A stretch of DNA of 20,000 nucleotides from positions 137,501-157,500 of the forward strand of contig JACVTC010000150.1 of assembly GCA_016946835.1 (NCBI GenBank), written 5' to 3'. A program made the position numbers and the translations under genes. The notes under the pieces were generated by a model, which worked only from the letters and a program-made list of their open reading frames with translations, had not been told where the DNA came from and ran no database searches. How positions within the stretch are numbered: position 1 is the stretch's first letter; each line of letters opens with the position of its first letter. Positions 614 through 17,599 of this stretch are shown here, one piece after another. The stretch is from Neocallimastix lanati (nom. inval.). Taxonomy: Eukaryota; Neocallimastigomycota; Neocallimastigomycetes; Neocallimastigales; Neocallimastigaceae.

Positions 614-1009
614 TCTATATTAATCCATAATTATTATATTTTATATAAACATTAATATAAAAGTCTATATTATAATAACTAAATTTTATACTATAATAAT
701 ATTATTTTATATAATTTATAATTAATGTAATTCACTATTTTTATATAATTAATTTTATAATAATATATATTATAATTTTAAAATATCATTATATTTCTTT
801 TCATCTCATAATCACTAATAATTAATTAAAGTGGCAAAGTAAAATTAAATATTGATCTGACTTATACTACTGATAAATATGATTAATATATATAAAGTTG
901 TTATAATATAATACAATATATTTAGTAATAAATAAAAATATAAAGAATTAATATTAATAATAAAAGAATTGATCTTAATAATAAATTTCAATAAGAATAA
1001 AAATTATAA
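614..1009. repeat. Direct repeat block A, copy 2
   Basis: Second copy of block A, same orientation as 1-419, with small indels and a few substitutions. After it the sequence diverges from copy 1 at a shared attaaaattt microhomology and continues into a single-copy segment (1010-1389) before block B resumes. Confidence 0.9.
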
Positions 1010-1254
1010 TTTGTATTAAAATTTAGTTTTGTATTAGTAATATAATTAGATTTTTTAACAATATTAATAATAAATTTTATAAGAATATACTATTATAAAG
1101 TATTTAAGAATATTGAAACATTCTAATATAAAAAGTAATATAATTTATTTAGTTCATAATTAATAATTACAATAGTAAATTCATTATGTGTTCATTTAAT
1201 AACTTTATGCTAAAGAATGAACATAGGTTTTATTTCTTCAAATGATATGCTATT

Positions 1255-1442
1255 TTATTGTTCGGAATCGCTCTCACATTCGACATTTCCTATATATTAT
1301 CTTTTCTTAACTTCCTTTTTTCACTTTATAAAATTCATTTTTTGGACCTCATCTGTTGTATTTATGTGTTCTGGTATTGTTTTTCTTAGATTATTAAAAT
1401 TTTTCTGATTGAGATAATCAATGCTATCATGTCTTAATTTTT
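1255..1442 (-). pseudogene. Broken coding fragment, unknown family
   Basis: Base composition is more complex here than in the flanks. On the minus strand one frame reads KLRHDSIDYLNQKNFNN, then LRKTIPEHINTTDEVQK and MNFIK before a TGA. A second frame continues KEVKKR, one in-frame TAA, then YIGNVECESDSEQ and TAA. This looks like the C-terminal end of a decayed protein with one frameshift and one stop. No start codon or upstream exon can be assigned: upstream is a long T/A run. The first part of the frame also occurs in block B copy 1 (420-611), where it is cut off after NFNN. I do not recognise the family. The opposite-strand frame across 1217-1408 could be a rival but is hydrophobic AT-rich noise. 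Confidence that this was ever a gene is low. Confidence 0.3.
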
Positions 1443-1569
1443 CTTTCTTTCTTTTTTTTTTTTTTTTTTTAATATATATATATATACTAACAATTGAAAA
1501 TAAAATTAATGAAAAAATTAAATACAAAGAGGTTTTTTTTTTTATTTTTAAGACTAAAATGCTTCTCTA
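1390..1569. repeat. Direct repeat block B, copy 2
   Basis: Second copy of block B (see 420-611), with a slightly shorter T run. It ends at gcttctcta, after which the sequence becomes unrelated to copy 1. With blocks A and the 1010-1389 segment it completes the longer A-X-B unit, of which copy 1 is an internally deleted version. Confidence 0.88.
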
Positions 1570-1913
1570 ACTTTATTATTCATTCTGGAAAAAATGAGAA
1601 AAAAAGAAAAAAATATAATTATTTTTGAATAAAATGAAGTACTATTAAAGGTCCCCCTTGTTTCGATTGGTATTCTTCCTCTTCCAATATAATTAGAAAA
1701 CAAGTTGGCCATGGAAGAGTGTTTAAAAATATAATAATTTGATTATTTTGTTAATAAACAATATTATAATTAAATTAAAAAAAAATTATTAAAACAAACA
1801 AACAAATCAACGAATAAAAAAAAAAAAAAACTATTCAAAACTTTTATTTAATATAAATAATTATATTTTGTTGTCATTTTTATTATAAAGTTAATAATTC
1901 TAAAGATTTATTG

Positions 1914-1946
<33 letters not shown>

Positions 1947-2166
1947 TTTTAGAAAAAAAAATATTTGTGTCTATTAAATTATAATAATAATTATTTAATT
2001 ATATAATTAATGAATTTTGAATAATAAAAATAAATAGAATTTAATATTAGAATATGGTAAATAAAAAATGATTTTCTTCTTATTTAAAGAAAAATCAAAA
2101 AAATAGCAAATAAAGAAAAAAAAAAAAATTTTTTTTTTTTTCTTTTTCACTAAATATAAATAATTA
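1570..2166. other. Intergenic, 3' flank of the CotH-GT2 gene
   Basis: No gene seen. The only compositionally distinct part is 1650-1725 (ggtcccccttgtttcgattg onward, ending near ttggccatggaagag), which I cannot assign. The rest is A and T runs, including about 26 T at 1919-1944. On the minus strand 2167 and below is the 3' end of the CotH-GT2 gene: its TAA is followed at once by a second in-frame TAA, then by a T-rich and A-rich stretch. No clear poly(A) signal can be singled out because near-matches occur everywhere. Confidence 0.6.
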
Positions 2167-5100
2167 TTAATCAATAATCTCAATAATTTGTGGTTCTTCA
2201 TTTTCATTTTCTATACATATTTTAGGTAAATTGTCTTTATTATAATTTACTATATCATTATGTTTTTCATTATTTTCCACTTTATATTTCTTTGTTTTAT
2301 TTTTACTCTCTTTGTTTTCTTTATTTTTATTTTGATTAGAATCTTTTTCTTTTTTATTTTTAAAAATGGATAATTTCCATTTTTCATATTTTAATTGTTT
2401 TTTATTAAATAAATAATCAGAAATATCAGATACATTGGCAATTGCTTTTTCAGAATCCATTTCTGTAATAATGTCTGACATAGTCATATAACTTATATTC
2501 TTTTTTAATGCCCTTTTCTTTATTTTTACATTATTTCTAACAAATGGAACATAATAAGTCCAAGTATAAATAATAGTAGAAATTCTAAAGAAAAGAGTTG
2601 TAAAGCACTGATAAAAAACTGGAAACACTACGCAAACTTCGAATGGTAATTTAATGGTTGGTTTACCTCTGGCAACAACTAAATTGAAGACATCTAAACT
2701 TATATAGGCAACAGCAAAGCAAATACAAATAATCATTAATGCTGGTAAAAAAGATTTCATTAAAAACATAAAGACAAATAATATAATGAAAAGATAATCA
2801 TTTATAATGGTTACGATAAAATCAATACAAAAGAATTTAGCAGTAAGAGTAGCTCGATGATTCCAACGACATTTATGGAGAATGCAATAAAGGAATTTAA
2901 AAAAGAAACGATGTCTTGCAGGTTCCCAATAAACAATACGTTGACGTGATAATGAATATTGACCACAATCACATTCTTTCAAATATTTACCCAAACAATG
3001 AGGAAGAAATTCCTTTAAATGTATATAACATCTAGGAACAACAGTATCAACCGTGACATGTGCCATTTCAATTTTATAATTACCTTCATGAATTTCATTG
3101 GGATTACAAAATCGAGGTTTACCATACATCGTATGAAGACGTAATCCAATTTGTAAATCATCTCCACGAAATACTGTATCATGGCGATAAAGACATTCCA
3201 ACAGGAATGGAATACTCCATGTACCAATAGCTCCACTTGGGAAAACAACTGTACCAATATCTTTATGTACTTTTTTACTATACATAGCAAGAGTATATTC
3301 GAAATTCTGAAATACTGGAACTATTCCTTCACGACGATTACTAGCATTAATAGGGTAGGCTAAACCTTTGACTTTGGGATCATTTTTAAAATAGGACAAA
3401 ATTTCATCTTCAACCCAATTTTCAGGAATTAATACATCATCATCAATAACTGAAATATACTGAATATTGATACCAAACCAAAATAAATTATTTAACAAAC
3501 AAAATTGAGCTAAGGTCTTGGAACCTTCATTCAAATTGGCATAAATGATATTTAATCCATTATAACTGGGATGAGTATATCGAAATCTATTACTATAATG
3601 ATCCACAATATCTTTCATTTTTTGCTTTTCTTCTGAATTTGAACCATTTTCAGCAATAAAAATGCACATAGGAATGGTAATTTTTAATAAACATTCTAAA
3701 GTTGCTGGTAATACATCGGAACTGTTATGACAGACAATGAGAAATCCATGTTTAATATTTTGATACATAGCTATGATTTTTGATTGCTCATCAGTGTATA
3801 AAGGAGTATTTTTAGCTTGGAAATATTCCTTATTTAAAACTTCATTATAATTACTATGAATACTAAGTTTTTCACTTACAGAATATGTTACTTTAGACAT
3901 CGTTTCTATATTGTCAATACTATTATTAATATCATTATCACAGTTACTACAATGAGTTCTAACACTACATTGATCATGATCTTTTTCTGTCATGTCCATT
4001 GTTTTTCTTTCTGTTTCTAAACATTCATCATTATCAAATAGAGATGAATCACTGTTAAAAATGTTGGAATAATTGGTAAGAATAGGTGAGATGTTACTCT
4101 GAATAGGTAAATTATTGTTATTAGACAAATTGGAATTAACACTATGAATATTTGAATTACCATTGACCATATTTGAGTCATTATTTAAAGTAAAAGAACT
4201 ATTGTTGATCGTATCGTTACTAGTAATATTGGAACGATTATTATTAGTATCTGTAGAATTATTATTAAAAGAACTAGTATTAGAAGAATAGATGGTATTA
4301 TCATTTCTATTATTACTGTCAGTATTACCATTACTTTGATTATCATCTATACTATTATCATTTGGAGAAAAAGTAGGCCAACGTACAAATGGTGCACCAA
4401 ATAAAACAATAAAGTTTTCACGGTTAAGAATAAGCCATAATACTATAGAAAATTTAATATATGTGTTATCGAAAGTACCATAGTAATTAATAATATAACG
4501 ATAAATTCGTACATGAATAAGTTTAAAAAACTCAGATTTTATATCATTCCTTATCAAAAAATAAGTAGAAATACATATAATAATAAATAAGAATAAAGCA
4601 ATAATCCAAAGTTTAAGGAATGTGGAAGGAAGTACTCTAATTTTTTTATTGGAGAAATGCCATACAAAAGGATTAATAAATACAGCATAAAAAAGATGTA
4701 CAAAAATAATTATCATAGAAATTAAAAAACAAGTAGTGAAAAGAGAATAAATACTGAATGGAATAATAAAATTATGATTTATAATAATATCTTCTTTTCT
4801 TTTTGTAATATATTTTTTCAAGTATTCATATTCACTGTTAATTTTTAACAATTCAATCATTTTATTACTGTTCTCTTCATATTTAATTGTATTATTGTCA
4901 ATTGGTTCCAGTAAAATATCCCATTTTAAATCTTCAAAAATCATTTTAAAAATACTATCCATTCTATTGAAATATTTTATAGTTCCATAAGTATTTAATA
5001 TAATTTCTTTCAAATATTTTTCAAAATGATACCTTTCATTTGAAAAACTAATTAAATAATCAAAAGTTGGTCTTCTAATATCATTTTTTCTTCTTCTTCC

Positions 5101-5388
5101 TATTAAACGATATTCATCATATGTAGTTATTGAACAATTTTGACCCCAATTATTAAATGGAGAAATATAATATCCTTCATGGAAATTCCATTTTTTTTTT
5201 TTCTAATATAATATATATAAATGTGTATTAGAGTAGTTAGTTAAGTTAGTATTCTATTATAATAAAGATTATTGTCTATTTTTTAATTATACGTAATTTT
5301 GATTTTTAATTTTACTATTTTTTTTTTTTTTTTTTTTTAGAAAAACAAAACAAAACAAAACAAAATAAAACAAAAAAAACAAAAAAAC

Positions 5389-5419
<31 letters not shown>

Positions 5420-6885
5420 TACTGTATCAAGATATAAAAAATAATTTGTTCCATTAAATAAATAACTATGTTGATTATTAGTTATAAAATCTAATGCCAT
5501 ATTTTTTAAAAAGGAAACAGTTTCAAAATTCTTTTTAATTTCACCTTCTGAAGTTGGTTTTTGAAATATTTTAAATAATGAAACAAGATCATTTTTAGCA
5601 TGGAAAGTATCAGGAAATTCTTTTCCTTGATACCAATAATTAAAATAATTATCTGTGGTTCTATTATTTAATAATGTTGGATCTGAATTAGTTAAGTTAA
5701 AATCACCATTATAAGTCATTGGAGAAAAATGACCATTCATTTGACTATAAAATTCAGAAGTATTATATTTTTTTTCAAAATATTGAACATTTGTATTTTC
5801 TTTAATTAAATAAAATCCTATGGGAGCATTATTGAAATAAACACGTGTGTATGCTACTTGAGCAGATTCTATACCAATATCATTACACATATCTGTATAC
5901 ATTTTTGTACGTATCATAATATTATCTGAAGACGTCGATATAAGTTGAATACTTGTATTATTAAAAATACTATTTTCTAATTGGTCTGTTGGTGATAATG
6001 GATCAGTGGAACTGTAGTCCATGTATGAAAGAAAAAATGAACTCTTTCTGGAATTATAATGGTCTTTAATATTATATTTACCCAAATAAAATGAAGTATA
6101 AATATCAGTATTTATTTTATCAGCATACTTATTATTTTCCAATAGTAATTGATTATATTTTTTTACTGAATATGGTGTAATAATAGTGGCACTTACATTC
6201 AATGAAGGAATAATGCTTTCATCATAAAAATACGCTTTTTGAAATCTTTTATATCTAAAAAGACTTCCAGTTAAATAAATAGTCGATATAAATTGATCAT
6301 TAAATAATTCTGAATGTTTATTGTGATTTAAATATTTTTGTTTAGATGATACCCCAGAAAGGTATGTATGTTGATAAATAGTTTTATTTCTACCAAAAAA
6401 ATCATTTAATAAAACTTTTGAATGTTTATTCAATGGTTGAATTGATCTTGTAAAATTTTCTTCTTCGATAATTGTATCTTTATCATTAATATTATAAGAA
6501 ACATAATTATAGGGAACTTTTTCATCTATTAAATCATATTCTTCACTCCAAATAGGATAATTTTCGTCATTTAACTTTAAAATTTTATCATTAACTTTTA
6601 ATCCTACTGCTGTGGTATTTCTATTAACAATAGCTACTACATTAAATTGGAAAAGTTCTGTATGTTATAATAAATAATAATAAAGCAATATTAATAGTTA
6701 AAAAAAAAAAGAAAAAAAAAATTAAAATTAAAAGGGTAAATATATTAAATAATAAATTTATTATAATAATATCTATACTATTTTAATTATATTTTATTTC
6801 CTTTTTAATATTTACTTGTATGAATTCCCATGAAAAGAAGGGAAAAAATAAATATAAAATTAATAAGCCATTTAAATTGAAACAT
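2167..6885 (-). CDS. CotH-domain / family 2 glycosyltransferase fusion, three exons
   Basis: Exons on the minus strand are 6885-6816, 6657-5423 and 5202-2167 (70, 1235 and 3036 nt), giving 1446 aa plus TAA. Exon 1 is essentially a signal peptide (MFQFKWLINFIFIFSLLF, then MGIHT). Residues about 25-535 align end to end with the CotH protein at 10003-11973, for example SELFNDQFISTIYL against SELFDDRFVSTIVL. Hydrophobic segments lie near 582-610, 630-652 and 684-705. Residues about 710-830 are an Asn/Ser-rich linker. The GT2 domain spans about 920-1200: VCHNSSD at the start, VIDDDV (the DxD, Asp 1022-1024), FPSGAIGTW, RGDD (1115-1117) and a QRIVYW that stands for QxxRW. More membrane segments follow at about 1231-1320, then a Lys/Asn-rich tail. 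Known of the family: GT2 enzymes of the chitin/hyaluronan synthase type polymerise sugars at the cytosolic face. The substrate cannot be told here. The usual CotH catalytic Asp residues are replaced (His 420, Tyr 446). Codon frame across both splices is continuous, but a 12-A run starts exon 3, so a homopolymer error would matter. Confidence 0.85.
4024..4377 (-). other. Asn/Ser-rich linker coding segment in the CotH-GT2 gene
   Basis: Codons here encode about residues 711-828 of the fusion, dominated by Asn, Ser, Asp and Thr (for example SNGNTDSNNRNDN and NSNLSNNNNLPIQSN). It separates the third membrane segment from the GT2 domain and is probably disordered. The DNA is AAT/AAC/AGT-rich and likely to vary in length between strains. 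Confidence 0.85.
5203..5422 (-). other. Intron 2 of the CotH-GT2 gene
   Basis: 220 nt, phase 0. The minus-strand donor is GATACA|GTAAGT and the acceptor is ATATTAG|AAAA. A perfect TACTAAC branch site lies at 5245-5251 (written gttagta on the plus strand), about 40 nt from the acceptor, with no other AG between. A long T tract follows the donor. Splicing joins ..NYFLYLDT to KKKKWNF, restoring the NYYLY..W spacing of CotH proteins and fusing the CotH part to the glycosyltransferase part. Without splicing, the upstream frame runs into Phe/Lys homopolymer and the downstream one has no ATG at its 5' end. Confidence 0.88.
6658..6815 (-). other. Intron 1 of the CotH-GT2 gene
   Basis: 158 nt, phase 1. 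The minus-strand donor is ACAA|GTAAAT and the acceptor is ACATACAG|AACTTTTCC. A long pyrimidine run (complement of 6700-6720) lies before the acceptor. Splicing joins A and AA into a Lys codon, linking the signal peptide to ..KLFQFNV, which matches ..NEFKFNV in the neighbouring CotH protein. Reading straight through meets TAA on both sides of the intron: exon 1 read on ends in SKYstop, and exon 2 read back hits a stop two codons before the acceptor. Confidence 0.8.
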
Positions 6886-10002: not shown

Positions 10003-11973
10003 TCATATTATAGTATTCATGCATATTATAGATATTAAAGTTAAAAATATTGATGAAAAATGTGCTAAAACACTTTTGATTGATATTTTTTTGAAGGAAG
10101 AAGCACAATTAGCGATAGAAGTATTTATTTCATCATAGTCATATATAGAAGCATATTTAGGTTTAGTATATCCTAAGGGTCCAACTGGAACAGTTTCATT
10201 TTGTTTAGGTGCATCAATAGAATAATCTTCTGAAGTATATCTCACACGATATCTTACAAAAGTTTTTAATGGCATTGGAACTACTAATAAATTTTTTTCA
10301 TCTGTAACAGAAAATACAAAAAATTCAATATTATAAATTTTTCCTATCTTGCCATTGAAATTTACTCTACTTAATAATAAATCCCATTCAATATCACTAT
10401 ATATCATTTGAATTAATGAATCAATATAAGCATAAAGAGTTGGCACATTAAAAGCACTTTTTACTGTATCGCATATAATAGTTTCAATTCTTTTTGAATA
10501 TTTATTATAATCTACTTCCAAAAGTTTAGTAAGTGGTTGACGAACAGGATCTATTTCTGAATTATAAGTTGATTGATTATAAAAATTATCTTTTATTTGA
10601 GATGAAAAACCGTCGGATCCAAAAGTAAAATGAAAATCAGTACTAACAAAATACCATCGATAATCATTTTTTTCTTTATTAGCTGCTTTATAAAGATAAT
10701 AATTATTTCCCCAATATAAATAATTATCTACTCCTTGACATAAATAATCTAAAACAAGACTTCGTAATAATGATTCTACGTGGAAAACTTCATTTTCAAA
10801 AGTATCCAAATTTAATTTTGTTAAATCATTAATTTTTTTGAATAAGGGAATTAATTGAGATCTTTTAGCTTTCTCATTATATTCTTCAATTGGTATATTA
10901 TTTTTTTTACAATATGAACTTTTTTTCAATTCATATGCTTTATATTCTAAACTGTCAGCATCAACATCTTCTCCATAATATACCATATTACCTACACTAG
11001 TCATAATGTTATCCACTTTAAATAGCAGAGCATCATCCTTTTTATTATATCCATTTCCATTATTTAATACTTCTTTCATAAAATTATAATTAGAAATATG
11101 ATCTACTAAAGTAAAGAAACCAATACTTTTTTCATTAATAATTAAACGAGTAAATGTACATCCTTGACTAGGTATTCCCATAGCATCCGCTAAACTATAA
11201 ACTAACTTTTCACGAATATAAGAGGAATCAGCTTGATTTGCTCTTAATTTTAATGCCTTCCTTTTGTAAAGGCCTTCTCCATTATGATCTTCAATATCTG
11301 TTATTTTATAACTTAGTTTACGATTAGTAATGGAACGATCACCACTAAGATTTAATGAAACTTCTGGGAATACCTTAACAGCATAAGGAGATATATATAT
11401 CATACGAGCTTTTAAATCATCTAATCCTTTAGATGGTTTAGAATGATATTTATCTAATAAATCACTATTTGTCTGATCTAATTGAAGTACAATAGTTGAA
11501 ACAAAACGATCATCAAATAGTTCAGATGGTTCAGTATAATTAAACTTTTTATATACTCTTGGAATATATTTAAGTTCATAAAAATCATGTTTTCTTTTAA
11601 AAATGTGATTATAGGTACTGAAATCGGAAGTATTAAAATAATGAATTCTTTCAAACTCTTCTTCATCTATAACAATTGTACTACTCTCTTTTTCATATAC
11701 TCCAAAATGATATTTAATTTCATCATAACCAGAAAAAGTACTTTTTGGCATCTTATAGGAATAAAGAGGATAAAAATCAAGTTCCATTAAATATTTTTTT
11801 CCTTCATATATTAAATAGACATCAAAATTTTTTTCAGTAAATACAAGTACGTTAAATTTAAATTCATTTTGAGTGGTTTCTCTTTTCAATTTAGATGATG
11901 AATATGAATAAATTCCATTATTAAAAAATAATAAAAAATAGCATATAATAATTAATATTTTAAAAATTTTCAT
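10003..11973 (-). CDS. CotH kinase-family protein, secreted, probably GPI-anchored
   Basis: 656 aa, single exon. I use the ATG at 11973 (MKIFKILIIICYF); the open frame runs four codons further up, but only to a TTG. Residues about 1-25 are a signal peptide. The CotH region runs about 150-540: TRLIINEKSIGFFTL, an ALKLRAN motif (Lys 242, Arg 244), IREKL (Arg 254), VDNYLYWGNNYYLY with Asp 416 in the place of the family's catalytic Asp, and STDFHFTFG with Asp 446 as the DFD-like metal-binding residue. The last 25 or so residues are hydrophobic after a small-residue patch (NCASS), as in a GPI signal. Known of the family: Bacillus CotH phosphorylates spore coat proteins; Rhizopus CotH proteins are surface-exposed; gut fungi carry many copies. 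This copy keeps the expected active-site residues, so kinase activity is plausible. It is a paralogue of the N-terminal half of the gene at 2167-6885. No intron is seen, unlike the paralogue. Confidence 0.93.
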   Translation of the reverse strand: MKIFKILIIICYFLLFFNNGIYSYSSSKLKRETTQNEFKFNVLVFTEKNFDVYLIYEGKKYLMELDFYPLYSYKMPKSTFSGYDEIKYHFGVYEKESSTIVIDEEEFERIHYFNTSDFSTYNHIFKRKHDFYELKYIPRVYKKFNYTEPSELFDDRFVSTIVLQLDQTNSDLLDKYHSKPSKGLDDLKARMIYISPYAVKVFPEVSLNLSGDRSITNRKLSYKITDIEDHNGEGLYKRKALKLRANQADSSYIREKLVYSLADAMGIPSQGCTFTRLIINEKSIGFFTLVDHISNYNFMKEVLNNGNGYNKKDDALLFKVDNIMTSVGNMVYYGEDVDADSLEYKAYELKKSSYCKKNNIPIEEYNEKAKRSQLIPLFKKINDLTKLNLDTFENEVFHVESLLRSLVLDYLCQGVDNYLYWGNNYYLYKAANKEKNDYRWYFVSTDFHFTFGSDGFSSQIKDNFYNQSTYNSEIDPVRQPLTKLLEVDYNKYSKRIETIICDTVKSAFNVPTLYAYIDSLIQMIYSDIEWDLLLSRVNFNGKIGKIYNIEFFVFSVTDEKNLLVVPMPLKTFVRYRVRYTSEDYSIDAPKQNETVPVGPLGYTKPKYASIYDYDEINTSIANCASSFKKISIKSVLAHFSSIFLTLISIICMNTII

Positions 11974-12173
11974 AACTCTTAACAATATTATTAAAATATG
12001 ATCAGGAAATAATCAAATTAATTTAAAAAAAAAATGGTTGTTATTTACTAAAAAAAAAATTAACCTTAATTATCTTTTTTATGAATTATATCTAATATTT
12101 ATATTTTTTTTATAAAATGACATAAATTTTATTATTTTATTATTCTAAATATAGATGATTATATTTTATAAAT
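11974..12173. other. 5' flank of the CotH gene
   Basis: About 200 bp of AT-rich sequence between the start codon and the minisatellite. The promoter and 5' leader probably lie here, but no element can be singled out. Confidence 0.45.
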
Positions 12174-12675
12174 ATATATTTAATAGAATATAATCATATA
12201 TATTAATAAAATATATTAATATATATTAATATATTTTATTGATTCATCAAAAAACTTTTCAAATTTTTAATTTGTAATATATTAATATATATTTAATAGA
12301 ATATAATCATATATATTAATGGAATATATTAATATATTTTATTGATTCATAAAAAAAACTTTTCAAATTTTAATTTGTAATATATTAATATATATTTAAT
12401 AGAATATAATCATATATATTAATGGAATATATTAATATATTTTATTGATTCATCAAAAAAACTTTGCAGATTTTTAATTCTTAATATATTAATATATTTA
12501 ATAGAATATAATCATATATATTAAAATAATATATATATATATATTTTGATTCAAAAAAAAAAGACAACTTTGCAGATTTTTAATTTTTAATATATTAATA
12601 TATATTTAATAGAATATAATCATATATATTAATGGAATATATTAATATATTTTATTGATTCAAAAAAAAAAACTT
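12174..12675. repeat. Minisatellite, five copies of a unit of about 104 bp
   Basis: Units start near 12174, 12287, 12390, 12492 and 12600, each with atttaatagaatataatcat, then atattaatggaatatattaa, ttttattgattca, an A run, aactttt(c/g)ca(a/g)att and a run of TTAATATATTAA type. Spacings are 102-113 bp; unit 4 is the most diverged. Many TTAATATATTAA palindromes lie inside. It sits about 200 bp upstream of the CotH start codon. Confidence 0.92.
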
Positions 12676-16601: not shown

Positions 16602-17041
16602 GAAATTAATTTTTTTTTTTTAATTTTTCCAATTTCCTTTGTAATTATCGTTTAATTCATCAGAAATAAGTTGAGGGTACTTTAAGGCATTTACTCTTTG
16701 TTCAATTCCTTTAATTAATTTCATCTCTTGATTGTATTTTAAACCGATTATTAGAATTATCAGAACTATTATAATTGTTATTATAATTACTATAATTATC
16801 ATTATAATTATTATTACTTTATTTACTATTGTGATTATTATTATTATTCTTTTTAATTTTTATCGTTTCTTTGATTAAAAATATGAACATATTTATCTCT
16901 ATAAATTATTATTATTACTTTTATGATGATTATAATAATATTAGTTTTTTTTTTAATTCATTTTTATTATATTAATTTATATTATTTTAGTATTTGAGTT
17001 TAACATTTTATTTTTATTTTTATTTTCTTCGATTAAAGCAA

Positions 17042-17044
<3 letters not shown>

Positions 17045-17085
<41 letters not shown>
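17045..17085. repeat. 41-base T homopolymer
   Basis: The longest uninterrupted homopolymer noticed in the window, inside the Gag-like pseudogene. Its length is likely unreliable in assembly. Confidence 0.9.
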
Positions 17086-17088
<3 letters not shown>

Positions 17089-17599
17089 GACGTTATTTTT
17101 ATTACTTCTTGTAAAGTTGTCGGTTCTTCTTCTAACAAAGCTTCAAAAATTTATATCTCAATTACTGAAAACATTAATATGATAGGAAGTGATTACTTAA
17201 TCACTAATTTTTAATTTTTTTATTTTATTATTTTATTACATAAAGTATTAAATCCTACATCAAAATTCAGAAATATTTTCTTCCTTTCATATAGTACCAG
17301 TAGATAATTCTAACAAATTAGTATTATTGGATGTAAATTTTCTAAAAATGTTCTTTTAGATTATTAATGATTGTAGGGTAATCATCTGGTGTAGATCTAT
17401 TTAATTCTTGCTATGTTAGTAGTTAAGGATATTAAATATTCAATTTTCTCCTTATCTTCTACTTTATTAGATTCCCACCACCGTTCAAACATGAATCTCC
17501 ATTCATCGAAGAATATTTTATCTTCTCCTAATATAGATAATCTTTTAAAAGTTATTGCTTTAATTTCATTTTCCATTTTAATAATTTATTTATAATTAT

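Follow-up and report, generated by a model that had tools for sequence, protein, structure and literature searches.

Anaerobic gut fungi carry CotH proteins in large numbers, and the role of the family there is speculative. Some of these proteins are cellulosomal and bear a dockerin. The CotH kinase family (PF08757) includes spore coat protein H, whose structure has been solved (5jd9/5jda). The available parts of PMC12189002 describe CotH counterparts of PKA residues D166, N171, and D184, as well as a Trp245 lying on the adenine. In bacteria, cotH-like genes are contained in the Pel operons of streptococci, clostridia, and bifidobacteria (PMC7112168, accessible text), and when the CotH-like SIR_1594 of S. 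intermedius is mutated, Pel levels change and aggregation falls (PMC12345266, accessible text). Among fungal membrane GT2 proteins, MoGT2 has 483 residues and a QxxRW motif (PMC6731526), and ZtGT2 orthologues occur in some chytrids and Mucor (PMC5653360), according to the sections available of both papers; those on MoGT2 contain no mention of CotH. No description of a CotH-GT2 fusion was found in the accessible portion of the open literature on CotH and glycosyltransferases.

I analyzed a window of 20,000 nucleotides of Neocallimastix lanati DNA, in which one gene encodes a CotH ectodomain, membrane spans, and a GT2 domain. With the CotH kinase family, the fusion protein shares the domain itself, the IRxK lysine, the INxxxG residues, the catalytic-loop Asn, and the adenine-stacking Trp, whereas it lacks both active-site aspartates and two conserved arginines and is joined to membrane spans and a GT2. 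The cellulosomal CotH proteins have the CotH domain in common with it and are encoded in the same genome; in contrast to them, the fusion protein has no CBM_10 dockerin at E<=1 in the Pfam search. The MoGT2/ZtGT2 type shares the GT2 domain, an acidic motif of the DxD type, and spans of the membrane, which in the fusion are predicted; this likeness does not imply orthology. As in the bacterial Pel loci, in the parts of PMC7112168 and PMC12345266 at hand, CotH stands beside a polysaccharide synthesis system. However, the CotH-like and synthesis genes of those bacterial loci are separate, while the fusion is one chain, and the likeness is one of context.

One spliced gene for CotH and GT2

The first-pass annotation had proposed that the CotH-like and GT2 frames belong to one spliced gene. 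This was borne out: when joined, the three exons (Table 1) encode a single open protein of 1446 residues followed by a stop codon, and both domains score above their Pfam cutoffs. The C-terminal part of CotH, the membrane spans, and the GT2 lie in one frame of 1011 codons, and thus the join of CotH to GT2 is independent of any intron. In first-order Markov shuffles (n=200) of exon 3, the longest open run was 110 codons. The GC content at codon position 3 is 0.11-0.18, against 0.24-0.40 at position 1, in the six parts measured. At the level of the genomic sequence, the CotH-GT2 fusion is confirmed.

Table 1. Positions of the fusion gene, its predicted parts, and CotH relatives (window coordinates, except for the paralogue matches)
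Feature	Position	Strand	Remarks
Exon 1	6816..6885	-	Carries the start codon; residues 7-25 hydrophobic and signal-peptide-like (hydropathy 1.78)
Intron 1	6658..6815	-	GTAAAT...ACAG; 158 bases; 9.5% GC
Exon 2	5423..6657	-	Bulk of CotH ectodomain
Intron 2	5203..5422	-	GTAAGT...TACTAAC...TTAG; phase 0; 220 bases; 12.3% GC
Exon 3	2167..5202	-	Remainder of CotH, then membrane spans, linker, GT2, and tail; open for 1011 codons up to the stop
Pfam CotH (PF08757) match	4792..6052	-	Residues 226-572; 43.4 bits (curated gathering cutoff 23.8); split by intron 2
Predicted membrane spans	4396..4731	-	Residues 593-611 (2.66), 634-652 (2.73), weakly 686-704 (1.49); hydropathy
Asn/Ser-rich linker	3793..4395	-	Residues 705-905; N+S 39%
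Pfam Glyco_tranf_2_3 (PF13641) match	3136..3744	-	Residues 922-1124; 32.6 bits (curated gathering cutoff 27)
DDD motif	3436..3444	-	Residues 1022-1024
GDD motif	3157..3165	-	Residues 1115-1117
C-terminal hydrophobic spans	2581..2817	-	Residues 1231-1309; hydropathy
Neighbour CotH gene	10003..12012	-	Single frame; retains both aspartates (DFH variant); in the fusion's tree group
Four best own-genome paralogue matches	C1:1655819, C1:893912, C1:1638193, C257:372022		Single stop-free frames over the junction

The placement of the canonical phase 0 intron between the two frames is supported. Among 30 enumerated GT/AG pairs for intron 2 (5 donors and 6 acceptors), the frame stays open in six; within these six, 5422/5203 is the sole pair with a GTAAGT donor, and it alone produces the paralogue-like sequence YFLYLDT followed across the junction by KKKKWNFHE. 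It had also been claimed that the CotH homology continues beyond the acceptor, and it does. The exon junction (residues 435/436) falls inside the Pfam CotH match, and in each of the four best paralogue matches from this genome a single stop-free frame runs across it. In the MAFFT alignment of the fusion with paralogues in uninterrupted frames, YFLYLDTKKKKWNFHE and YYLFKDTAKNLWYFHD are placed gap-free at the junction. At the 5′ end, the proposal of a signal-peptide exon is plausible, judging from the hydropathy of exon 1 and from the alignment, in which the paralogues' ectodomain homology starts at about the start of exon 2. No Rfam or tRNA match was found in the window.

The CotH ectodomain and its relatives

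At least 124 matched CotH places exist in the genome (124 scored out of 303 candidates). The membrane-anchored CotH proteins of this genome (L050-L054 and the neighbour gene) form a tree group with the fusion (99/99), and their ectodomains align with that of the fusion from the N-terminus to the ectodomain end. A hydrophobic tail ends three of five fetched close paralogues, the other two running past the fetched stretch; in the fusion, the spans and the GT2 come after the last ectodomain block of the alignment. L050-L054 and the neighbour protein keep both active-site aspartates, whereas the fusion has lost both. With a length of 2.18, its branch is the longest in the tree group, where the median is 0.5.

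In the fusion, the catalytic Asp is replaced by His and the metal Asp by Tyr, while both are Asp in all 26 other own-genome CotH rows, which are mostly high-scoring matches and thus no random sample of the 124 places. Two conserved arginines are also altered, to Asn and to Ile (Arg in 25/25 rows having a residue there). A 10-row CotH profile found 5jd9/5jda among the solved structures, and the family profile aligns to them with FDGF and WDYD at the active-site places, while the neighbour CotH alone found no related solved structure at E<=1. Since the catalytic and metal aspartates are replaced, the fusion ectodomain is probably a pseudokinase, as read from its residues. The suggestion that the CotH module acts as a kinase was accordingly not upheld, although the loss of the known residues does not exclude an unusual form of catalysis.

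The GT2 half and the membrane topology

That the protein takes part in polysaccharide synthesis, as first suggested, is plausible. The suggestion agrees with the GT2 match, which is modest in score, and with the DxD-type and acceptor-side acidic motifs, DDD and GDD, whose aligned counterparts in a bacterial GT2 are DAD and GED. It finds no such agreement in the canonical QxxRW of processive GT2 synthases, which is absent from the fusion (QRIVYW at residue 1189 is all there is, where the bacterial GT2 has QRARW), and the processivity of the GT2 is therefore unproven. No related solved structure was found by sequence for exon 3 (E<=1) or the GT2 part (E<=10), and no chitin synthase model such as PF03142 matched the whole protein (E<=1) or the GT2 part (E<=10). 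AlphaFold2 run on the GT2 half without an alignment gave a mean pLDDT of 40.4.

By hydropathy, spans are predicted on both sides of the GT2 domain. The third span is weak, weaker than a stretch within the GT2 domain itself (1.72 at residues 933-951); if it were absent, the GT2 would be on the lumen side. Furthermore, the loop between spans 2 and 3, lumenal in the proposed topology, has five Lys/Arg and three Asp/Glu, contrary to the positive-inside rule.

The GT2 half has one match in the genome. By eye, no second CotH-GT2 pair within 10 kb was seen among the listed CotH and PF13641/PF13632 places, lists that are partial (CotH, 124 of 303 candidates; PF13641, without the fusion's own GT2). About 13 kb separate the closest listed pair, which lies on C223 and whose GT2 is a chitin synthase. 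Outside the genome, viral contigs queried with the GT2 and the CotH half, and prokaryote genome contigs queried with the GT2 and a three-row CotH alignment, gave pattern matches of which none was confirmed by tblastn, and no fusion was found in either set. Among plasmids, the GT2 found one record (E 4e-2) and the CotH domain of L037 one (E 7e-11). NCBIfam had no match and PHROGs had one (E 0.14). Two records of one phage matched the GT2 at E 9e-2; they are annotated as phosphoribosyltransferase and were taken as chance.

Possible roles of the fusion protein

The most likely reading, which I hold tentatively, is that of a membrane sugar transferase with an outward-facing dead CotH module that anchors or controls the enzyme. 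The signal peptide would direct the CotH ectodomain to the secretory lumen or the outside of the cell, and the chain would cross the membrane, most likely three times. The long Asn/Ser-rich linker would then connect to the GT2 domain on the cytosolic side, with about three more spans C-terminal to it. The GT2 may draw on cytosolic nucleotide-sugar for the synthesis or extension of a glycan of the surface or wall. In a putative sensor or scaffold role, the CotH pseudokinase may recognize an active CotH kinase, the glycan as it emerges, or a partner in the coat or wall; through such binding it would anchor, position, or regulate the transferase. A more specific version is possible but doubtful: a membrane-spanning glycan synthase gated by the pseudokinase, in which the dead ectodomain would relay the outside state (contact with the wall, a partner in the coat, or an active CotH kinase, for example the neighbour gene product) to the cytosolic GT2, as a single-chain form of the CotH-polysaccharide link of bacterial Pel operons.

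Other explanations were weighed against the same evidence. Rather unlikely, but the strongest of them, is a non-processive GT2 attaching sugars singly to lipid or protein, with CotH as an adhesive leftover of a membrane-anchored ancestor exerting no control over the enzyme. The missing canonical QxxRW speaks for it, and the long branch and the lost kinase residues are compatible with relaxed constraint; however, the ectodomain is still open and above the Pfam cutoff, and the GT2 domain has predicted spans on either side, as synthases do. The single genomic match to the GT2 half and the lost kinase residues could also indicate a young, species-limited chimera without fixed function and heading to a pseudogene. 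This is improbable, since the reading frame stays open over 1446 codons although the genome is very AT-rich, both halves show the base pattern of coding sequence, and the GT2 retains its acidic motifs.

The two remaining explanations are both very improbable. An active CotH kinase might phosphorylate coat proteins or the polymer produced by the GT2. The full-length domain, the loop Asn, the Trp, and the IRxK lysine could be cited for this; against it stands the replacement of four residues, the two aspartates and the two arginines, that are constant in the other rows covering them. Alternatively, CotH might end in or near intron 2 with the GT2 expressed from a start of its own, or the frame might be misread owing to a wrong base in the run of 11 A with which exon 3 begins. 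Homopolymers are indeed present in the splice region, but the CotH homology restarts at the acceptor, with the right length and in the frame of the GT2.

A CotH domain without its catalytic residues, carried on the same polypeptide as a membrane glycosyltransferase, links the CotH family to glycan synthesis, and the fusion is one concrete protein for testing the role of CotH in anaerobic gut fungi. If the preferred reading of an anchoring or controlling CotH module is true, the protein would parallel, in a eukaryote, the association of CotH with exopolysaccharide in bacteria, and it would exemplify the control of a glycosyltransferase by a pseudokinase outside the cytosol.

Gene model of the CotH-GT2 fusion

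The first-pass annotation had joined two frames through an intron into one spliced gene, CotH followed by a family 2 glycosyltransferase (GT2). This was borne out by the genomic sequence; read as three exons, the gene yields an uninterrupted protein of 1446 residues with both Pfam domains. The CotH match covers residues 226-572 (43.4 bits; cutoff 23.8), and the Glyco_tranf_2_3 match covers residues 922-1124 (32.6 bits; cutoff 27). Glycos_transf_2 is below its cutoff of 23.3 in the full fusion (22.6) and passes it with exon 3 alone (23.6) and with the GT2 part alone (25.8). Since the second part of CotH and GT2 lie in one frame, no intron is required between them. This exon 3 frame is open for 1011 codons, while the maximum in 200 shuffles was 110 open codons. 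The codon-position base composition is coding-like in the parts measured.

The connection between the two parts of CotH depends on intron 2. It was found that CotH paralogues of the same genome run across this point in single frames without stops, and the alignment at the splice is gapless (YFLYLDT/KKKKWNFHE in the fusion, the slash marking the junction, versus YYLFKDTAKNLWYFHD in a paralogue). Around intron 2, the frame was kept by 6 of the 30 GT/AG pairs tried; among these 6, only 5422/5203 has GTAAGT and yields the paralogue-like sequence. The window has a GC content of about 18%; its other features are listed in the table.

Features in the window and in two fetched stretches
Feature	Location	Strand	Observation
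Intron 2	window 5203-5422	-	GTAAG and a long T run at the start, an A run near the middle; pairing possible
Start of exon 3	window 5192-5202	-	11 A; a sequencing indel there would shift the frame
Neighbour CotH gene	window 10003-12012	-	one frame, hydrophobic C-terminal tail; on the strand of the fusion gene, about 3 kb past the 5′ end of the latter
Tandem array	window 12221-12670		103-base unit, 4.3 copies, 88% matches; upstream of the neighbour CotH gene
Short frames	window 16977-17585	-	subjective resemblance to a Gag-type fragment of a retroelement
CotH frame	L041 (outside the window) 3182-6082	+	chitin-recognition domain in six matched stretches; a further polysaccharide-linked CotH combination
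Gene row	L055 (LR962858.1, Enterococcus faecalis plasmid) 914-6041		unannotated VTC, DUF4956, response regulator, histidine kinase and CotH genes

CotH family and kinase residues

In the assembly (199.05 Mb, 762 contigs), where own-genome match lists are lower bounds, CotH matched at least 124 places, all above the cutoff (124 of 303 candidates scored). Places are not equal to genes, since one frame (L037) holds two. Partner domains were scanned in eight CotH frames, leaving out the longer frames L030-L033. CBM_10, the dockerin typical of anaerobic fungi according to PMC11291939, was found in three and CBM_1 also in three (one below its cutoff); one has chitin-recognition domains, three have CotH as the sole domain, and none of the eight has a GT2 partner. 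In a 24-row tree, the fusion, the neighbour and five fetched paralogues form one group (99/99); the fusion has the longest branch (2.18 versus a median of 0.5), and the tree program warned of uncertain placement for a row of this length.

Ten family members were combined into a profile, which aligns with the solved CotH structures 5jd9/5jda (E 3.4e-35). According to the review PMC12189002, CotH retains equivalents of PKA D166, N171 and D184, and adenine is held by Tyr142 and Trp245. The fusion was aligned with 26 other rows, namely 20 high-scoring Pfam matches, five from the match list of the fusion's CotH half, and the neighbour. The catalytic D is H in the fusion and the metal D is Y, while each is D in all 26 other rows, whose conservation is partly a matter of choice because they were selected largely by high score. 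The arginine preceding KLR is N and the KLR arginine is I (each R in 25 others, with one gap); the first KLR position is Q, as in one other row. The fusion keeps the loop N and the N and G of INxxxG (each in 26/26 others), the W (W in 20 others, Y in 5, a gap in 1) and the IRxK lysine. The fusion's nearest relatives retain both aspartates, and so does the neighbour, which has DFH instead of DFD (H in 5 of 26 rows, neighbour included). Judging from its residues, the CotH module of the fusion is probably dead as a kinase.

GT2 half and predicted membrane topology

The GT2 half matched only itself in its own genome (one match of two candidates; a lower bound). For PF13641, 20 loci were fetched and the frames of 10 scanned; these were eight chitin synthases and two other GT2 proteins, one with a GT1 domain. 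CotH was found in none of the 10 at E<=1e-6, several frames being cut by locus ends. In an alignment with a GT2 from an Erythrobacter plasmid (24% identity; a weak match, E 4e-2), DDD and GDD of the fusion fall on DAD and GED. The plasmid GT2 has QRARW; the fusion has QRIVYW near the same place. In the fungal MoGT2, as PMC6731526 reports, DxD mutation abolished function and QxxRW mutation partly impaired it. No description of a CotH-GT2 fusion was found in the open-access literature searched.

Hydropathy predicts spans at residues 593-611 and 634-652, together with a weak span (686-704; 1.49) and three more C-terminal of the GT2 domain. Residues 933-951, which lie within that domain, score 1.72, higher than the weak span. 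Nucleotide-sugars are located in the cytosol. A lumenal start followed by three predicted spans would fit a cytosolic GT2.

Bacterial parallel, proposed origin and role

In Gram-positive bacteria, cotH-like genes accompany Pel operons, for which regulation via phosphorylation was proposed (PMC7112168). In S. intermedius, mutants of the CotH-like SIR_1594 differed in Pel levels and aggregated less (PMC12345266). The L055 gene row overlaps the accessory gene set that PMC7112168 describes with Pel operons; the six of its frames that were scanned gave neither a GT2 nor a Pel protein. The bacterial cases are company, not mechanism.

A hydrophobic tail ends three of the five fetched CotH paralogues, and the other two run off the fetched stretch. 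In the fusion, the last conserved ectodomain block is followed by the spans and GT2. In the simplest history, the anchor of a membrane-anchored CotH gene would have been replaced by a gained multi-span GT2, and catalysis would have been lost from CotH. The dead CotH may anchor or gate the transferase.
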